A stretch of DNA of 20,148 bases from a virus (IMGVR_UViG_3300010885_007174:1-20148); one strand, 5' to 3'; counted from the first letter of the stretch, positions 12,781 to 18,437 are shown. The notes: generated from the sequence alone by a model not told the origin. Numbers and translations: made by a program.

Positions 12781-14136
12781 CTATTTGTTTGCTTCTATTC
12801 TAAAATTAACACCCGGATGCTGACCCTGGGGTGGTAGAACTTGAACGTTTTTATATCCTAATTCGGTTAGAAGATCTGTTAAAGCTTTTGGATAGTAACC
12901 AAACAGATGCGGCGACTTAACTCCATTCTTCAACGCCTCTTCTGATGGCTTTTCTTCATCAATAAAAGCACCATAAATGCATAACGTTAAACTAAATCTT
13001 TCTTCAAACGTCTTAGCATCAGTAAACGCTTTGCAGAGGCCCTCTAAATCAGGCATCTCCATAATAAGCTTGCCGTCTGGCTTCAAAGCATCTAACCACT
13101 TACTTAGCAGCTCTGGAGCTCTATGCTGTGGTATATGCTCAATCACGTGTGAAGCAAAAATCTCATCCACACAGCCTGAAGGTAGCTTAAAATCAAAAAT
13201 ATCTTCGTTGATGTCTGCAATCTTGTTATATTTATCAATGCCAATATATCCTTCTAGCTTGTCGCGACCTGAGCCGATATTAAGCTTGAGAGGTTCGCCG
13301 CTATCAATAATTGCTTGTAACTTGTTTTTGCCGCTGTTGCTACCCTCGGGCAATCTATCAATCCAGCGTCTGTCAATATAGTCTTTATAATCTAAAGTAA
13401 GAGGTCTACCAATAGGAATATTGGTATAGTACTTCTTAATATCTACTGATGGGTGTGCTGTATAGTTGCCTGATGCAAGATCCATATGCAGACACTGTAC
13501 ATCGGTGTTGACAAGAAGTTTAATTCCTAATCTGTGTAGTCTGTGTACAAAGAAGTTGTCCTCGCCTACAAAAGGGATCTCATCGTTAATGTTATTACCA
13601 ATACAGCAGAATGGTAGTTCAGGATCTTCTTCTTTTAGTCTCTTCAAAATATCAATAGGAACTAGCATCACATCCATACCTGTTTGCCAGGCAGTGATTA
13701 ATTGCCCAGGGTCTACATTAGGGATAGTAATCCAGTTGCCGTTCCGCACCATAATCATGGCATCGGAGCATTTGATATAGTAGACGCCTGTTACTACTGT
13801 ACCTGGATTCTTTTCTGCTGTTTCGTGTAAGACCTTAAATGCATCGTACGGGAGAACAGTATCTTCGCCAACGAATAAAAGATACTTTGCGCCACTCTCT
13901 AATGCTCTTTCTATTAGATAGTTTCGAGCAACGTCTACCTTTTCTCCACCTATATTACAGAAGCCATGCGAGAAACCTAGCATGTCTATATGAAGGCCAT
14001 CGTAGCCATCAAAATTTTGTGCTGCTGTTTCGTTTAGATCTCTTCTTGGTTGAGCTACCATTACATATGGTGCTATTTCTTTTGAGCCTTCATAAATCTC
14101 TTGCATTATACCAATAATCTTATCACGATTATACAT
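12781..14136 (-). CDS. Glycosyltransferase (GT-A type) fused to SAM-dependent methyltransferase
   Basis: A 451-residue two-domain enzyme. Residues about 20-240 look like a GT-A glycosyltransferase: ARNYLIERALESGAKYLLFV leads into GEDTVLP at 90-96, a likely metal/nucleotide-sugar acidic motif, and GEDNFFVHRLHRLGIKLLV with a later CLHMD at 191-219 fits the acceptor-side ED--F--R pattern. Residues about 282-450 are a class I methyltransferase of the Methyltransf_11 kind: LNIGSG at 285-290 (SAM loop), IGIDK at 298-302, ADIN at 307-310, ASHVIEHIP at 328-336 and LKPDGKLIMEMPDL. Neither domain has a signal peptide or membrane segment, so both should act in the host cytoplasm. The position inside a fibre cassette suggests glycan or fibre modification, but the substrate is unknown. 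A GAGG element precedes the ATG. Confidence 0.82.
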   Translation of the reverse strand: MYNRDKIIGIMQEIYEGSKEIAPYVMVAQPRRDLNETAAQNFDGYDGLHIDMLGFSHGFCNIGGEKVDVARNYLIERALESGAKYLLFVGEDTVLPYDAFKVLHETAEKNPGTVVTGVYYIKCSDAMIMVRNGNWITIPNVDPGQLITAWQTGMDVMLVPIDILKRLKEEDPELPFCCIGNNINDEIPFVGEDNFFVHRLHRLGIKLLVNTDVQCLHMDLASGNYTAHPSVDIKKYYTNIPIGRPLTLDYKDYIDRRWIDRLPEGSNSGKNKLQAIIDSGEPLKLNIGSGRDKLEGYIGIDKYNKIADINEDIFDFKLPSGCVDEIFASHVIEHIPQHRAPELLSKWLDALKPDGKLIMEMPDLEGLCKAFTDAKTFEERFSLTLCIYGAFIDEEKPSEEALKNGVKSPHLFGYYPKALTDLLTELGYKNVQVLPPQGQHPGVNFRIEANK

Positions 14137-14148
14137 TACTAAACCTCA

Positions 14149-15312
14149 CTAAAATTTATTGAAAAAAGGTGACAGGCATGTGCCTATGTTAAAAGGAATT
14201 CCTGGATTTGTTGAAATTTTTTGGCCTGCCTTCATATTACTGTTAGGTATAAAATGAATTTCACCGTTAGGTGTAAGAATTCCACCCGCATAAAAATATG
14301 GGGAAGAAATTAATATGTTATAAGTTGATACTATCCCTAATGCAGAAACTTTTTGACCGTATGGAGCCCAGAATGGTACAAAATGAATATCCCCGTTAGG
14401 TGCTAGTACTCCGCCGTAATATTCACCATTTACCCCACTATATACTAAACTATAAGTTGACACAACTCCGGAGACTGATATTTTTTGTCCTACTCGTGCA
14501 CGAAATGGTACTAAATGAATATCTCCATTATGAGATAAAACACCCCCTATGTAATTAGAATTTGAACCATTAGTATGTATTAAACTATAAGTTGATACTA
14601 CTCCAGATGCAGATACTTTTTGACCTACTTGTGCCTGCGCAGGTACAAAATGAATATCTCCATTAGGTGCTAATACCCCTCCATTATATAAGTTTGGATA
14701 AAACCCTGTTAAGGTATACACTAAGCTATAAGTAGACACTACACCAGTATTGGTGTTTATCTTTTGACCTACTATTCCCGAATTGGGTATAAAATGAATA
14801 TCGCCGTTGGGTGCAAGAACGCCTCCTGTGTATGCGCCAGTACCTGTAGTATACACTAAGCTATAAGTAGACACTACACCAGTATTGGTGTTTATCTTTT
14901 GACCCACTCGTGCCTGCGCAGGTATAAAATGAATATCTCCATTAGGGGCAAGTACACCTCCCGTATACACATAAGACCCAGTATACACTAAACTATAAGT
15001 TGATACCACCCCGGCTGCAGATACCTTAAGCCCCACCGGTGTTGCATTAGGTACGAAATGAATATCGCCGTTGGGTGCAAGAACACCTCCAGCATAGCCG
15101 ACGCCATATGTATACACTAAACTATAAGTTGATACCACCCCGCTACTAAACAAACTACCACCTGCAACTGATTTGTTTAATAATGTTTTAAATGAATTCC
15201 ATGCAGTTAAATCACTACCTATAGAACTATTATCCGCAGCCGGTACAGTGCCTTGTGTTGTGCTTTGTACCTCTGAAATAAATGTGTTAGAATTACGGTT
15301 CAGTATAGCCAT
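14149..15312 (-). CDS. Seven-repeat putative beta-propeller tail adhesin, copy A
   Basis: A 387-residue protein with three parts. Residues 1-58 are an N-terminal region (SEVQSTTQGTVPAADNSS) shared in outline with the next two genes. Residues 59-371 are seven repeats of about 42-47 residues, consensus VVSTYSLVYT-x(n)-GGVLAPNGDIHFVP-x(n)-GQKVSASG. The last 16 residues end in CLSPFFNKF, also conserved in the paralogues. Repeat length, a GGVLxPNG turn in each unit and the count of seven fit a seven-bladed beta-propeller. Similar VLAPNG-type repeats occur in other proteins predicted to be propellers. I infer a virion-borne adhesin or glycan-binding protein. It begins 2 nt after the stop of copy B with no clear Shine-Dalgarno (TAATAATG), so translation is probably coupled. 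Confidence 0.75.
   Translation of the reverse strand: MAILNRNSNTFISEVQSTTQGTVPAADNSSIGSDLTAWNSFKTLLNKSVAGGSLFSSGVVSTYSLVYTYGVGYAGGVLAPNGDIHFVPNATPVGLKVSAAGVVSTYSLVYTGSYVYTGGVLAPNGDIHFIPAQARVGQKINTNTGVVSTYSLVYTTGTGAYTGGVLAPNGDIHFIPNSGIVGQKINTNTGVVSTYSLVYTLTGFYPNLYNGGVLAPNGDIHFVPAQAQVGQKVSASGVVSTYSLIHTNGSNSNYIGGVLSHNGDIHLVPFRARVGQKISVSGVVSTYSLVYSGVNGEYYGGVLAPNGDIHFVPFWAPYGQKVSALGIVSTYNILISSPYFYAGGILTPNGEIHFIPNSNMKAGQKISTNPGIPFNIGTCLSPFFNKF
14200..15138 (-). repeat. Seven propeller-blade repeats in copy A
   Basis: Seven consecutive coding repeats of roughly 126-141 bp. Some are nearly identical at DNA level: the 56-nt stretch at 14714-14769 recurs unchanged at 14849-14904. The variable positions cluster just before GGVLAPNG and between HFVP and GQK, which would place diversity in surface loops. 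Confidence 0.85.
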
Positions 15313-15314
15313 TA

Positions 15315-16427
15315 TTATAACTTATTAAAGAATGGTGACTGGCATATGGATTGATTAAAAGGTATGGCTGGTAGTGTTGATATTTTTTGACCAACAGCTG
15401 CACTTTGAGGTATAAAATGAATATCTCCGTTAGGCGCTAAGACCCCACCTTTGTATCCATTCGTAACAGTATACGCTAAACTATAGGTTGATACTACTCC
15501 TGATGCAGACACTTTTTGCCCCACAACAGCTGAATTACCTGGTATAAAATGAATATCTCCATTAGGCGCTAGAACACCACCGTAATATAATGCATTGCCT
15601 GTGTACACTAAACTATAAGTTGATACTACCCCTGTGGCTGATACCTTTTGCCCTCGGCTTGCATAGGCTGGTACAAAATGAATGTCTCCATTAGGTGCTA
15701 GAACTCCTCCAAAGTGTGGATAATAATCAGTATAAACAATTGAATAAGTAGATGATACACCTGCTGCTGATACCTTCAGACCTCTAAGGTAAGAGTAAAA
15801 AGGTATTGTGTGAAGCTCGCCATTAGGAGCTAGTACCCCTCCGCTCACATTAACGTGTGCATTAATTATACTAAATGTTGAAACTACCCCTGAAGAAGAT
15901 ACTTTTTGAATATTGCTACTGGCTATAAAAAAAATATCTCCATTTGGCATTAGTACTCCGCCAACATAGCCGCTGGCAATTATACTATAAGTTGACACTA
16001 CCCCTGACGCAGATACTTTTTGGCCAACAGTAGCACCATTTGGTACAAAATGTATATCACCATTAGGAGCTAAAACTCCTCCTAGATATGCAACAGAACT
16101 AGTATATACTAAACTATATGTGGACACTACACCAGATGCTGATACTTTTTGCCCTACAGTAGCCGCATATGGCACAAAATGAATGTCTCCATTAGGTGCT
16201 AGAACACCGCCAGAATATGCATTAGCCGCAGTATACACCAAACTATAAGTGGATACTATCCCGTTCTGAAATGCTTGTCCTGCATTTACGCTTGCATCTA
16301 ACATACCTTTCATACCAAAGAACCAGCTATCAGATGTGGTGGTGCTATTATCTGCTGTATTAATGGTTCCCCAGGCTCTTTGTTTAACTTCTGAAACCCA
16401 CCCAGGTGCTAAGGAATATGTTGGCAT
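15315..16427 (-). CDS. Seven-repeat putative beta-propeller tail adhesin, copy B
   Basis: A 370-residue paralogue of copy A. The N-terminal region has the same layout (GWVSEVKQRAWGTINTADNS, then GMKGMLDASVNAGQAFQNG), residues 57-354 contain seven repeats, and the C-terminus ends CQSPFFNKL. Repeats 3 and 4 are the most diverged: repeat 3 is shortened (VVSTYSIIASGYVGGVLMPN), and repeat 4 has VSGGVLAPNGELHTIP in place of the usual GGVLAPNGDIHFVP. This divergence, with the retained count of seven, suggests an older copy still under structural constraint. It starts 2 nt after the end of copy C and has a poor Shine-Dalgarno. No catalytic motif is seen. Confidence 0.75.
   Translation of the reverse strand: MPTYSLAPGWVSEVKQRAWGTINTADNSTTTSDSWFFGMKGMLDASVNAGQAFQNGIVSTYSLVYTAANAYSGGVLAPNGDIHFVPYAATVGQKVSASGVVSTYSLVYTSSVAYLGGVLAPNGDIHFVPNGATVGQKVSASGVVSTYSIIASGYVGGVLMPNGDIFFIASSNIQKVSSSGVVSTFSIINAHVNVSGGVLAPNGELHTIPFYSYLRGLKVSAAGVSSTYSIVYTDYYPHFGGVLAPNGDIHFVPAYASRGQKVSATGVVSTYSLVYTGNALYYGGVLAPNGDIHFIPGNSAVVGQKVSASGVVSTYSLAYTVTNGYKGGVLAPNGDIHFIPQSAAVGQKISTLPAIPFNQSICQSPFFNKL
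15366..16259 (-). repeat. Seven propeller-blade repeats in copy B
   Basis: Seven consecutive coding repeats, most of 42-44 residues, with a shorter third unit of about 38 residues. They follow the consensus VVSTYSLVYT / GGVLAPNGDIHFVP / GQKVSASG seen in copies A and C. Confidence 0.85.
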
Positions 16428-16429
16428 GA

Positions 16430-17002
16430 TTAGAACTTATTAAAGAATGGAGAGCAACAGACGCCTAGACTGAATGGTTCAGCAGGATTTGTTGAAATTT
16501 TTTGACCCTGGGAAGCAGTATAGGGTACAAAATGAATATCTCCATTAGGTACTAATACTCCTCCGGTATATGAAGCAGAAACAGTATATATTAAACTATA
16601 AGTTGATACTACTCCAGTATTAGTGTTTATTTTTTGGCCTACTGGTGTGTTAAATGGAACGAAATGAATATCTCCATTAGGTGCTATTACCCCTCCCCAG
16701 TATTGTCCACCACTAGTATATACTAAACTATAAGTTGACACTACTCCTGAAGCGGATACTTTTTGTCCTCTATTTGCATTATTAGGTATAAAATGTATAT
16801 CTCCATTAGGAGCTAGAACTCCCCCAACATATGCACCATTACTATTAGTATACACTAAACTATAAGTTGATACTACTCCAGATGCGGATATTTTTTGTCC
16901 AACTTCTGCTGCAACGGGTACAAAATGAATATCTCCATTAGTAGCTAAAACACCACCCCAATATGCACTAGTAGTAGTATACACCAAACTATAAGTTGAC
17001 AC
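16430..17002 (-). CDS. C-terminal fragment of propeller adhesin copy C
   Basis: This 190-residue stretch holds repeats 4-7 and the CCSPFFNKF tail. The GTG at 17002 is a valine codon inside the repeat consensus VVSTYSL rather than a convincing start: no Shine-Dalgarno precedes it, and the frame stays open upstream to 17230 with in-register repeats 2 and 3. It is best read as the second part of a frameshifted gene. Confidence 0.6.
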   Translation of the reverse strand: MSTYSLVYTTTSAYWGGVLATNGDIHFVPVAAEVGQKISASGVVSTYSLVYTNSNGAYVGGVLAPNGDIHFIPNNANRGQKVSASGVVSTYSLVYTSGGQYWGGVIAPNGDIHFVPFNTPVGQKINTNTGVVSTYSLIYTVSASYTGGVLVPNGDIHFVPYTASQGQKISTNPAEPFSLGVCCSPFFNKF

Positions 17003-17400
17003 TACTCCTGAAGCGGATACTTTTTGTCCTCTATTTGCATTATTAGGTATAAAATGTATATCTCCATTAGGTGCTAGAACTCCACCTAGATATGCTCCAT
17101 TACTATTAGTATAGACTAAACTATAAGTTGATACAACCCCGGATACTGATATTTTTTGACCTACTAGTGCAGAATAAGGTACGAAATGAATATCACCATT
17201 AAGTGATAATACTCCCCAACATATGCACCATTACTATTAGTATACACTAAACTATAAGTTGATACAACCCCGGAGGCTGATATTTTTTGTCCTCGGTTTG
17301 CACCTAAAGGAACAAAATGAATATCTCCATTAGGAGCTAATACCCCTCCAGCATATATACCAACAAAATAAGTATACACCAGACTATATGTAGATACTAT
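16481..17400 (-). repeat. Seven propeller-blade repeats in copy C (spanning the frameshift)
   Basis: Seven repeats are present if the frame is restored. The DNA is more homogeneous than in A and B: 86 nt at 16725-16810 are identical to 16986-17071, and the stretch around 16826-16874 recurs around 17218-17266. This shows recent duplication or gene conversion within the gene. Confidence 0.85.
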
Positions 17401-17568
17401 TCCATTCTGAAATGTTTGTCCTGCGTTTGCGTTTCTTTGAAGTAATCTTTGCATACCGGGTACTGTATTACTTCCCATGCTGCTATTATCACCTGTAGGC
17501 AATGTACCGGCGGCTGCTTCAGTAACGTCGTTTTGCCACGAAGGGGAAATAATATAGTTATTGGCCAT
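17164..17568 (-). CDS. N-terminal fragment of propeller adhesin copy C
   Basis: As the sequence stands, this 134-residue product contains the N-terminal region (SWQNDVTEAAAGTLPTGDNS), repeat 1 and the start of repeat 2, and then an out-of-frame tail EYYHLMVIFISYLILH that has no counterpart in the paralogues. The start ATG overlaps the stop of the collagen-like gene (TAATG). With barely more than one blade it should not fold as a propeller. Confidence 0.7.
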   Translation of the reverse strand: MANNYIISPSWQNDVTEAAAGTLPTGDNSSMGSNTVPGMQRLLQRNANAGQTFQNGIVSTYSLVYTYFVGIYAGGVLAPNGDIHFVPLGANRGQKISASGVVSTYSLVYTNSNGAYVGEYYHLMVIFISYLILH

Positions 17569-18437
17569 TAGAACCCTAGAACTCTGACTCTATATTGGCT
17601 TGAGGTAGGTGCTATAACAAAACTAACTACACACGTATTATTGTTTGTAACTGATACATCAGGGTACACTTGGTTATTAGTGGCATTCTCAAAAACTACC
17701 ACTGACACATCTGCTTTAGCTAGGTTATGATTAATAGTAAAAGAAGTGTTAGTACCATCCCCTATGTTAGTTGTGTATGATATGGCCCCTGCATCTCCTT
17801 TTGCTCCATTATTACCAGTATTACCTGTCTCACCTTTTTGTCCTTTCATACCTGCTGCTGAAAATGTAGTTAGATCAGAATTTGTAAATGTTATGGTATT
17901 TAATTCATCTATATAAGTTGCGGCGTAAAGCTGACTACCCTTATCGCCCTTTGCACCAGTACTACCAGTTGAACCAGTCGGTCCTACTTCACCCTTGTCA
18001 CCCTTATCTCCCTTTGCACCAGCAGCATAGACATTGCCATCTGCACCTTTGCTGCCTTGATCGCCTTTTTGACCTTTAACACCAGTGACCGGGAAAACAG
18101 TTGAGTCTGAATTGGTGAAAACTATTGTGTTGTTAGCATCTGTGTATAATGCACTAGAAACCTTCTCTCCCTTTTCTCCTTTGGAGAAAACATTGTTTAT
18201 AATGCCTATGGTAATAATATCGCTACTGTTGGCAGCAAGGGTAAGAGTAACCCCTAGAGAGTTTGCAGTATAGTCACCAGTATTGGATTGCAATACACCG
18301 TTAATATAGATTAAAAAATTATTGAAATTACTCTTTGTAGATGAGTATGGGAAATAGGTCTGGCCTTCTGTTGCAACAGTAGTTTCTAGTACTAAGCTGT
18401 CTGATGCACGACTTGCTAAGTTTCTAATTATGCCCAT
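17568..18437 (-). CDS. Collagen-like tail fibre protein
   Basis: A 289-residue protein. Residues 1-85 form an N-terminal beta-rich domain (FNNFLIYINGVLQSNTGDYT). Collagen-like Gly-X-Y runs follow at about 87-92, 119-134, 140-167 and 196-218, rich in GxKGDKG and GPTG. The segment YTDANNTIVFTNSDSTVF plus GVKGQKGDQG (from residue 98) is duplicated as YIDELNTITFTNSDLTTF plus GMKGQKGETG (from 175). The C-terminal 70 residues (IGDGTNTSFTINHNLAKADV, ending YRVRVLGF) match a beta domain commonly ending aquatic-phage fibres. Collagen repeats in phage fibres trimerise the shaft, so I infer a trimeric fibre. It overlaps the start of copy C by one base and has an AGG element before the ATG. Confidence 0.8.
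   Translation of the reverse strand: MGIIRNLASRASDSLVLETTVATEGQTYFPYSSTKSNFNNFLIYINGVLQSNTGDYTANSLGVTLTLAANSSDIITIGIINNVFSKGEKGEKVSSALYTDANNTIVFTNSDSTVFPVTGVKGQKGDQGSKGADGNVYAAGAKGDKGDKGEVGPTGSTGSTGAKGDKGSQLYAATYIDELNTITFTNSDLTTFSAAGMKGQKGETGNTGNNGAKGDAGAISYTTNIGDGTNTSFTINHNLAKADVSVVVFENATNNQVYPDVSVTNNNTCVVSFVIAPTSSQYRVRVLGF

Follow-up and report, generated by a model that had tools for sequence, protein, structure and literature searches.

What do three adjacent, related repeat genes do inside the structural gene cluster of a T4-like phage? The question is raised by the virus record IMGVR_UViG_3300010885_007174 (20,148 bases, analysed at its full length and called the window below), which carries T4-like structural genes, almost all of them encoded on the minus strand, and whose terminase is about 55% identical to those of P-SSM2-type phages. 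The three genes lie between fibre-like genes and neck genes and are transcribed in the order C, B, A, occupying slots 1, 2 and 3 of the cassette. An earlier note, made from the sequence alone, had described them as a predicted triple beta-propeller adhesin cassette. The current work supports the propeller fold, and the three genes are probably slot-wise tail receptor-binding propellers that are exchanged whole.

Repeats, blades and the predicted propeller fold

Each gene comprises an N-terminal domain, seven blades and a tail: gene C in slot 1 (16430..17568; all window features located here are on the minus strand), gene B in slot 2 (15315..16427, 370 amino acids (aa)) and gene A in slot 3 (14149..15312, 387 aa). 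The repeat unit has about 43 residues and reads VVSTYSLVYT, a variable stretch, GGVLAPNGDIHFVP, a second variable stretch and GQKVSASG. With seven units per gene the total is 21, the interrupted blade 2 of gene C included. Blades measure 43, 44, 45, 47, 45 and 44 residues plus a seventh in gene A, and 43, 43, 38, 43, 43 and 44 residues plus a seventh in gene B. In the window, one single-base frameshift interrupts gene C within blade 2, in a C-run near 17215, and leaves an N-terminal open reading frame (ORF) at 17164-17568 and the remainder open at 16430-17212. An independently assembled contig of 104.9 kb, L009, differs from the window at two places over 10,832 bp, one of which is this frameshift; because gene C of L009 is intact, with seven blades, the frameshift is regarded as a sequencing error or a minority variant.

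Among 1,170 distinct blades of related phages, framework entropy is mostly below 1 bit per column, so the repeats lie well outside what chance would give. Between the blades of the window phage, silent sites are far diverged (proportion of differing silent sites, pS, about 0.52). Conservation of the framework in the face of such divergence means that the likeness of the blades is kept by selection and does not stem from fresh duplication.

AlphaFold2, run on copy B with an alignment of 133 sequences, gave a model with a predicted local distance difference test (pLDDT) of 90.5, a predicted template modelling score (pTM) of 0.90 and exactly 28 strands (7x4). In this model the N-terminal domain of residues 1-56 (16260..16427) has helices at 10-19 and 32-49, and the closed propeller covers about residues 57-352 (15372..16259), blade 3 being short at 38 residues. 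The strand at 57-62 comes before blade 1 and belongs to blade 7, which holds only three C-terminal strands; the order of elements in the sequence is D-(A-B-C-D)x6-A-B-C, with the VVSTYSLVYT strand first. Such a one-plus-three arrangement is the classical closure of a propeller ring.

Known structures lead to the same family. The six best Protein Data Bank (PDB) structural matches of copy B in Foldseek are Vgb lyases, which are seven-bladed; for 2qc5 the E-value (E) is 5.4e-20 and the template modelling (TM) score 0.87 over the target, at 2.9 A. A sequence profile searched against PDB recovers Vgb lyases too (2qc5, E 2e-9), and its matches to 2z2n and 2z2p leave the C-terminal part of Vgb uncovered. 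Pfam Vgb_lyase (PF24684) matches B at 6e-9 (35.5 bits) and the long part of C at 6e-10 (38.9 bits), below the curated cut-off of 50 bits, and does not match gene A; five relatives exceed that cut-off (L012 71.7, L081 61.7, L010 59.8, L044 55.2 and L043 53.0 bits). NCBIfam Vgb matches fall far under their cut-offs, and the PHROGs matches of A, B and C, short and weak, were not used. Genes A and C align to relatives over all blades. It is strongly supported, with high confidence from the model for B and by alignment for A and C, that the three genes are predicted closed seven-bladed beta-propellers of the Vgb/NHL-like type.

The same count recurs in related phages. IMG/VR loci were scanned with a blade profile built from the window and near-copies were merged, giving 62 distinct loci in which two distant Cylindrospermopsis phages count as one; as similarity to B was the basis for finding loci, the set could lack remoter relatives whose numbers differ. 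Seven blades are present in 152 of 162 complete genes. Exactly three genes were found in 38 of the 43 distinct loci flanked on both sides, two more having a split third gene, and also in the whole-region contigs L127, L141, L149 and L128 (second scan). In L057 (850-5667), slots 1 and 2 are two long double-propeller proteins (7+7 blades each), with an N-domain-like linker before the second propeller; two partial matches in one of these genes were read as a single blade split by an insertion. In L045 and L074 two genes, separated by a small ORF, divide the slot-3 propeller 4+3, and the exception in L031 is a frameshift.

A slot-3 propeller divided at a D-A loop into 4 + 3 blades was observed in L132:8213-10516 and L152:8222-10915. 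There a glycine-rich stretch closes the first half, and the ORF between the halves, of about 165 aa, looks sulfotransferase-like by eye, with no Pfam match.

These results agree with the earlier note on several points. Three paralogues with seven repeats each are confirmed for A, for B and for C read across the frameshift, and the triple cassette recurs in related phages. The closed seven-bladed fold that it proposed is borne out by the confident model of copy B, the Foldseek and profile matches to Vgb and the constant blade count. Of the checks it suggested, structure prediction on copy B returned a closed seven-blade ring and contradicted an open solenoid, and comparison with propeller families matched the seven-bladed lyase 2qc5.

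Fixed ends, exchanged propellers and the variable face

The N-terminal domains and C-terminal tails are slot-specific; the propellers are not. In the window the N-terminal domains are residues 1-56 of gene C (17401..17568), the corresponding residues of gene B given above and residues 1-58 of gene A (15139..15312); the tails are AEPFSLGVCCSPFFNKF in slot 1 (16433..16483), one ending in AIPFNQSICQSPFFNKL in slot 2 (15318..15371) and GIPFNIGTCLSPFFNKF in slot 3 (14152..14202). N-terminal domains are either short, at about 57 residues (the form in the window), or long, at about 140 residues, and the trees of both forms group by cassette position rather than by phage. Slot-label changes number 3 among the long domains against 28.7 in shuffles (minimum 2), and 7 among the short domains against 23.0. 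For 141 of 156 N-domains and 149 of 156 C-tails, the nearest neighbour in another locus comes from the matching slot, in contrast to 62 of 156 propellers, where chance would give about one third. The propeller tree is without slot signal (25 label changes against 22.9 in shuffles, and 26 against 28.6). In L018/L019 and L033 (the latter by eye), slots 1 and 2 have changed places, one of each being retained.

Between phages, N-termini are 91-99% identical and propellers merely 64-82%, silent sites included. In the same-slot pairs L028/L042 and L032/L054, nucleotide identity is 93-94% for N-domains and 66-75% for propellers, and shared residues have the same codon in 44-53% of cases in the propeller versus 82-87%. 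Slot 1 of L028/L042 illustrates the pattern: nucleotide identity is 93.7% in the N-domain, 100% in the tail and 68.4% in the propeller, and of the residues that are identical, 82% in the N-domain and 49% in the propeller are encoded by the same codon. Propellers of same-slot pairs with near-identical ends differ as much as propellers of different slots. Since silent framework sites change too, whole propellers appear to have been replaced by recombination; the exchange would take place between the conserved ends, regardless of slot of origin. Several blades of gene C share loop sequences, and some exchange between single blades is likely as well.

Loop-only hypermutation by a diversity-generating retroelement was considered and rejected, because silent framework sites change as well as loops. 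No RVT_1 reverse transcriptase was found in ten related contigs of up to 238 kb, which are possibly incomplete.

Within a blade, variation has a definite place. Across the 1,170 blades the variable columns are those of the D-A and B-C loops and the residue that precedes GG, and the framework is nearly invariant. Among blades of the window phage, the ratio of replacement to silent differences (pN/pS) is 0.10 in the framework and 0.96 in the loops, with silent pS at about 0.5. A pN/pS near 1 is relaxed or diversifying change and alone is no proof of positive selection. In the model of copy B, 41 of 57 high-entropy propeller residues sit in D-A and B-C loops, which differ in variability from the A-B and C-D turns (P = 3e-8). 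In standard propeller topology the D-A and B-C loops lie on the same face; entropy and this topology together place as many as fourteen variable loops, seven of each type, on a single face. Variation between fixed blade strands, which had been noticed in the window, is borne out and sharpened to two loop types of one face.

A probable role at the phage tail

Genes C, B and A would encode three tail-associated receptor-binding proteins, one for each fixed attachment slot, and each protein would consist of a slot-specific N-domain, a closed seven-bladed propeller and a slot-specific C-tail. The variable loop face may be the host-contact surface, which phages could alter by recombining whole propellers between the conserved ends, whichever slot they came from. 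We infer the tail-adhesin role as the best reading of the syntenic position within the T4-like structural gene cluster, and of the tail-fibre-type N-domains and lectin-like inserts of relatives. The long-form N-domain, found in relatives and distinct from the short one of the window, has matches among proteins annotated as tail fibres, for instance in Roseobacter phage CRP-6; in Methylophilales phage Venkman it also occurs in a protein encoded beside the tail fibre gene. Insertions in some relatives comprise LamG lectin-like domains, glycine-rich domains or additional propeller-like ones, and the inserted LamG domains resemble domains of baseplate-wedge proteins. The suggestion that the propellers stand in place of classical fibre tips is not supported: the same phage carries collagen-like and other fibre-like genes.

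Several points weigh against this explanation. The phage group is known here from metagenomes alone, and the aligned model covers copy B alone, as a single chain. The Vgb fold is an enzyme fold as well. Seven blades are not absolute, because one slot-3 gene (L044) has an apparent six and another slot-3 gene five (L030, where the upstream frame is broken). Repeat-related noise affects the propeller alignments and tree, and the lost slot signal could partly be saturation; the silent-site comparison of close pairs is independent of that tree.

Other explanations are much less probable. A fold other than a propeller, such as an open array of repeats, or a recent expansion in tandem without fixed count is hardly credible: a single-sequence model of copy B was poor (pLDDT 41), as such a reading would have it, but it was uninformative and was replaced by the confident aligned model with its velcro closure; moreover, seven blades are kept across divergent phages, and the far divergence of silent sites means that the expansion is not recent. 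It is also unlikely that the propellers are proteins that build or decorate the collar, baseplate or head and have no part in receptor recognition. Their position between fibre-like and neck genes would suit such proteins, and T4 whisker and baseplate genes occupy the same general region; however, neither a pN/pS near 1 confined to the loops of one face nor whole-domain replacement between close relatives is expected of purely structural proteins, and the lectin-like inserts point to surface recognition. It is quite improbable that they are tail-borne enzymes, such as a Vgb-like lyase or a surface-glycan depolymerase, whose loops set substrate specificity. Although streptogramin B lyases are the nearest relatives with a solved structure, and phage tailspikes include trimeric propeller enzymes (the endosialidases of K1F and phi92, cited in PMC4901313), the conserved residues appear to recur in every blade as a structural pattern, with no unique active-site set, and it is the loop face that varies in the phage propellers.

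More tentatively, and with some doubt, the three genes might form one heteromeric recognition organ, most simply a heterotrimer on a three-chain fibre, with propellers exchanged among slots. Such an assembly would fit three observations: phages in which slots 1 and 2 have traded places (L018, L033) still have a gene of every slot type, the protein ends are particular to their slots, and the window phage has a collagen-like (three-chain) fibre gene beside the cassette. If true, the heterotrimer would show three unrelated binding faces at one tip.

The neighbouring genes bear on the receptor-binding explanation in a speculative way. Directly downstream of slot 3 is a 451-aa glycosyltransferase plus methyltransferase-like protein (12781..14136). 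In 49 of 51 distinct loci the gene directly after the cassette encodes a glycosyltransferase, in most cases as a fusion with a methyltransferase, and the linked enzyme would probably modify the adhesin or the adhesin's target glycan. In some phages this gene is the glycosyltransferase half alone (about 270 aa). No full homologue of the window protein was found among 50,697 phage records, and a PDB search with the downstream glycosyltransferase gave no match. Immediately upstream of slot 1 is a collagen-like fibre protein with Gly-X-Y repeats (17568..18437); as only the window phage and some others have a collagen-like gene at this place, a collagen stalk does not characterise these phages in general.

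Further collagen-related genes were observed upstream in the same phage, on L088, a contig of L009. A 654-aa protein (L088:8535-10499, minus strand) has a GT25 domain, a PLOD-type collagen glycosyltransferase domain (Pfam GT_PLOD E 3e-57; PDB LH3 E 3e-49) and an oxygenase domain that finds matches among the structures of lysyl hydroxylases. Its gene is close to collagen-like fibre genes rich in G-D-K triplets, and the phage may be able to modify its own collagen by hydroxylation and glycosylation; GT_PLOD was present in 3 of 26 related contigs. A 524-aa protein (L088:14787-16361, minus strand) consists mostly of Gly-rich triplet-like repeats (GTAGTAGSAGNPG...) unlike the GDKG collagens of the same phage. 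The best viral structural match of copy B, BFVD A0A1V0SG21 of the giant virus Hokovirus HKV1 (620 aa, TM 0.78 over the query), is named collagen-repeat containing and apparently joins a propeller and collagen in one protein.

Distribution and comparison with known systems

The three-slot cassette was absent from the 50,697 phage records, in which a related single propeller was found only in two Cylindrospermopsis phages, and no three-propeller phage cassette appeared in the literature searched, most subscription journals being outside its coverage. A scan of 84,980 species genomes for a bacterial or prophage origin gave pattern matches and no confirmed relative. A cyanophage host was considered, cyanophages being among the terminase relatives at 55% identity, but a psbA-type gene was absent from the ten contigs searched.

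Phages were already known to use propellers as receptor-binding domains; what is new here is the combination of three slots in one cassette, constant protein ends and propellers that are exchanged. Its pattern is as expected for interchangeable host-recognition heads in three fixed sockets. The cassette offers a repeat scaffold of natural origin, one face of which displays as many as fourteen variable loops, following a logic like that of T2-type gp38 or antibody frameworks, and predicts the residues that would decide host range in T4-like phages known here only from metagenomes. It also provides a clean data set on how blade number persists while blades and propellers recombine.

The Vgb streptogramin B lyase (PDB 2qc5, 2z2n-2z2p; PF24684) is alike in being seven-bladed and is the best profile and structure match. 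The phage proteins differ from it in their slot-specific N-domains and C-tails, their near-identical blades with variable loops and their three tandem genes, and enzyme activity is not indicated for them. The Cylindrospermopsis phages Cr-LKS4 and CrV-01T (OQ625504, MH636380) share seven related blades (GGVLAPNGRIY...) and a ...LNKI C-terminus, but have one propeller ending a protein of about 1,140 aa and no three-gene cassette; a search with their propeller added one further locus only.

Among propellers with a role in host recognition, as described in PMC4901313, Gp45 of Staphylococcus phage phi11 is a receptor-binding protein with three propellers per trimeric spike; it differs in having five blades from one gene (a homotrimer), in a siphophage and with no interchangeable three-gene cassette. 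The C-terminal domain of phiKZ gp131 (PDB 4GBF) is seven-bladed, lies at the baseplate periphery of a contractile phage and is suggested to bind receptors; likened here by that description, it shares the seven-bladed propeller and the contractile phage, whereas it is a single protein. PRD1 P2 is another propeller receptor-binding protein in that source (PMC4901313). In T-even phages, the distal tip adhesin of the T2-type gp38 has a conserved framework whose hypervariable loops decide host range, the same framework and loop logic in a different fold, a polyglycine-II sandwich, and in a single tip protein (PMC12892980). The eBAP3 fibres of an extracellular contractile injection system (eCIS) likewise join collagen-like shafts with propeller lectins; there propeller and collagen stand in one fibre, whereas the window phage has a separate collagen-like gene, shared with only some of its relatives (PMC12923769).

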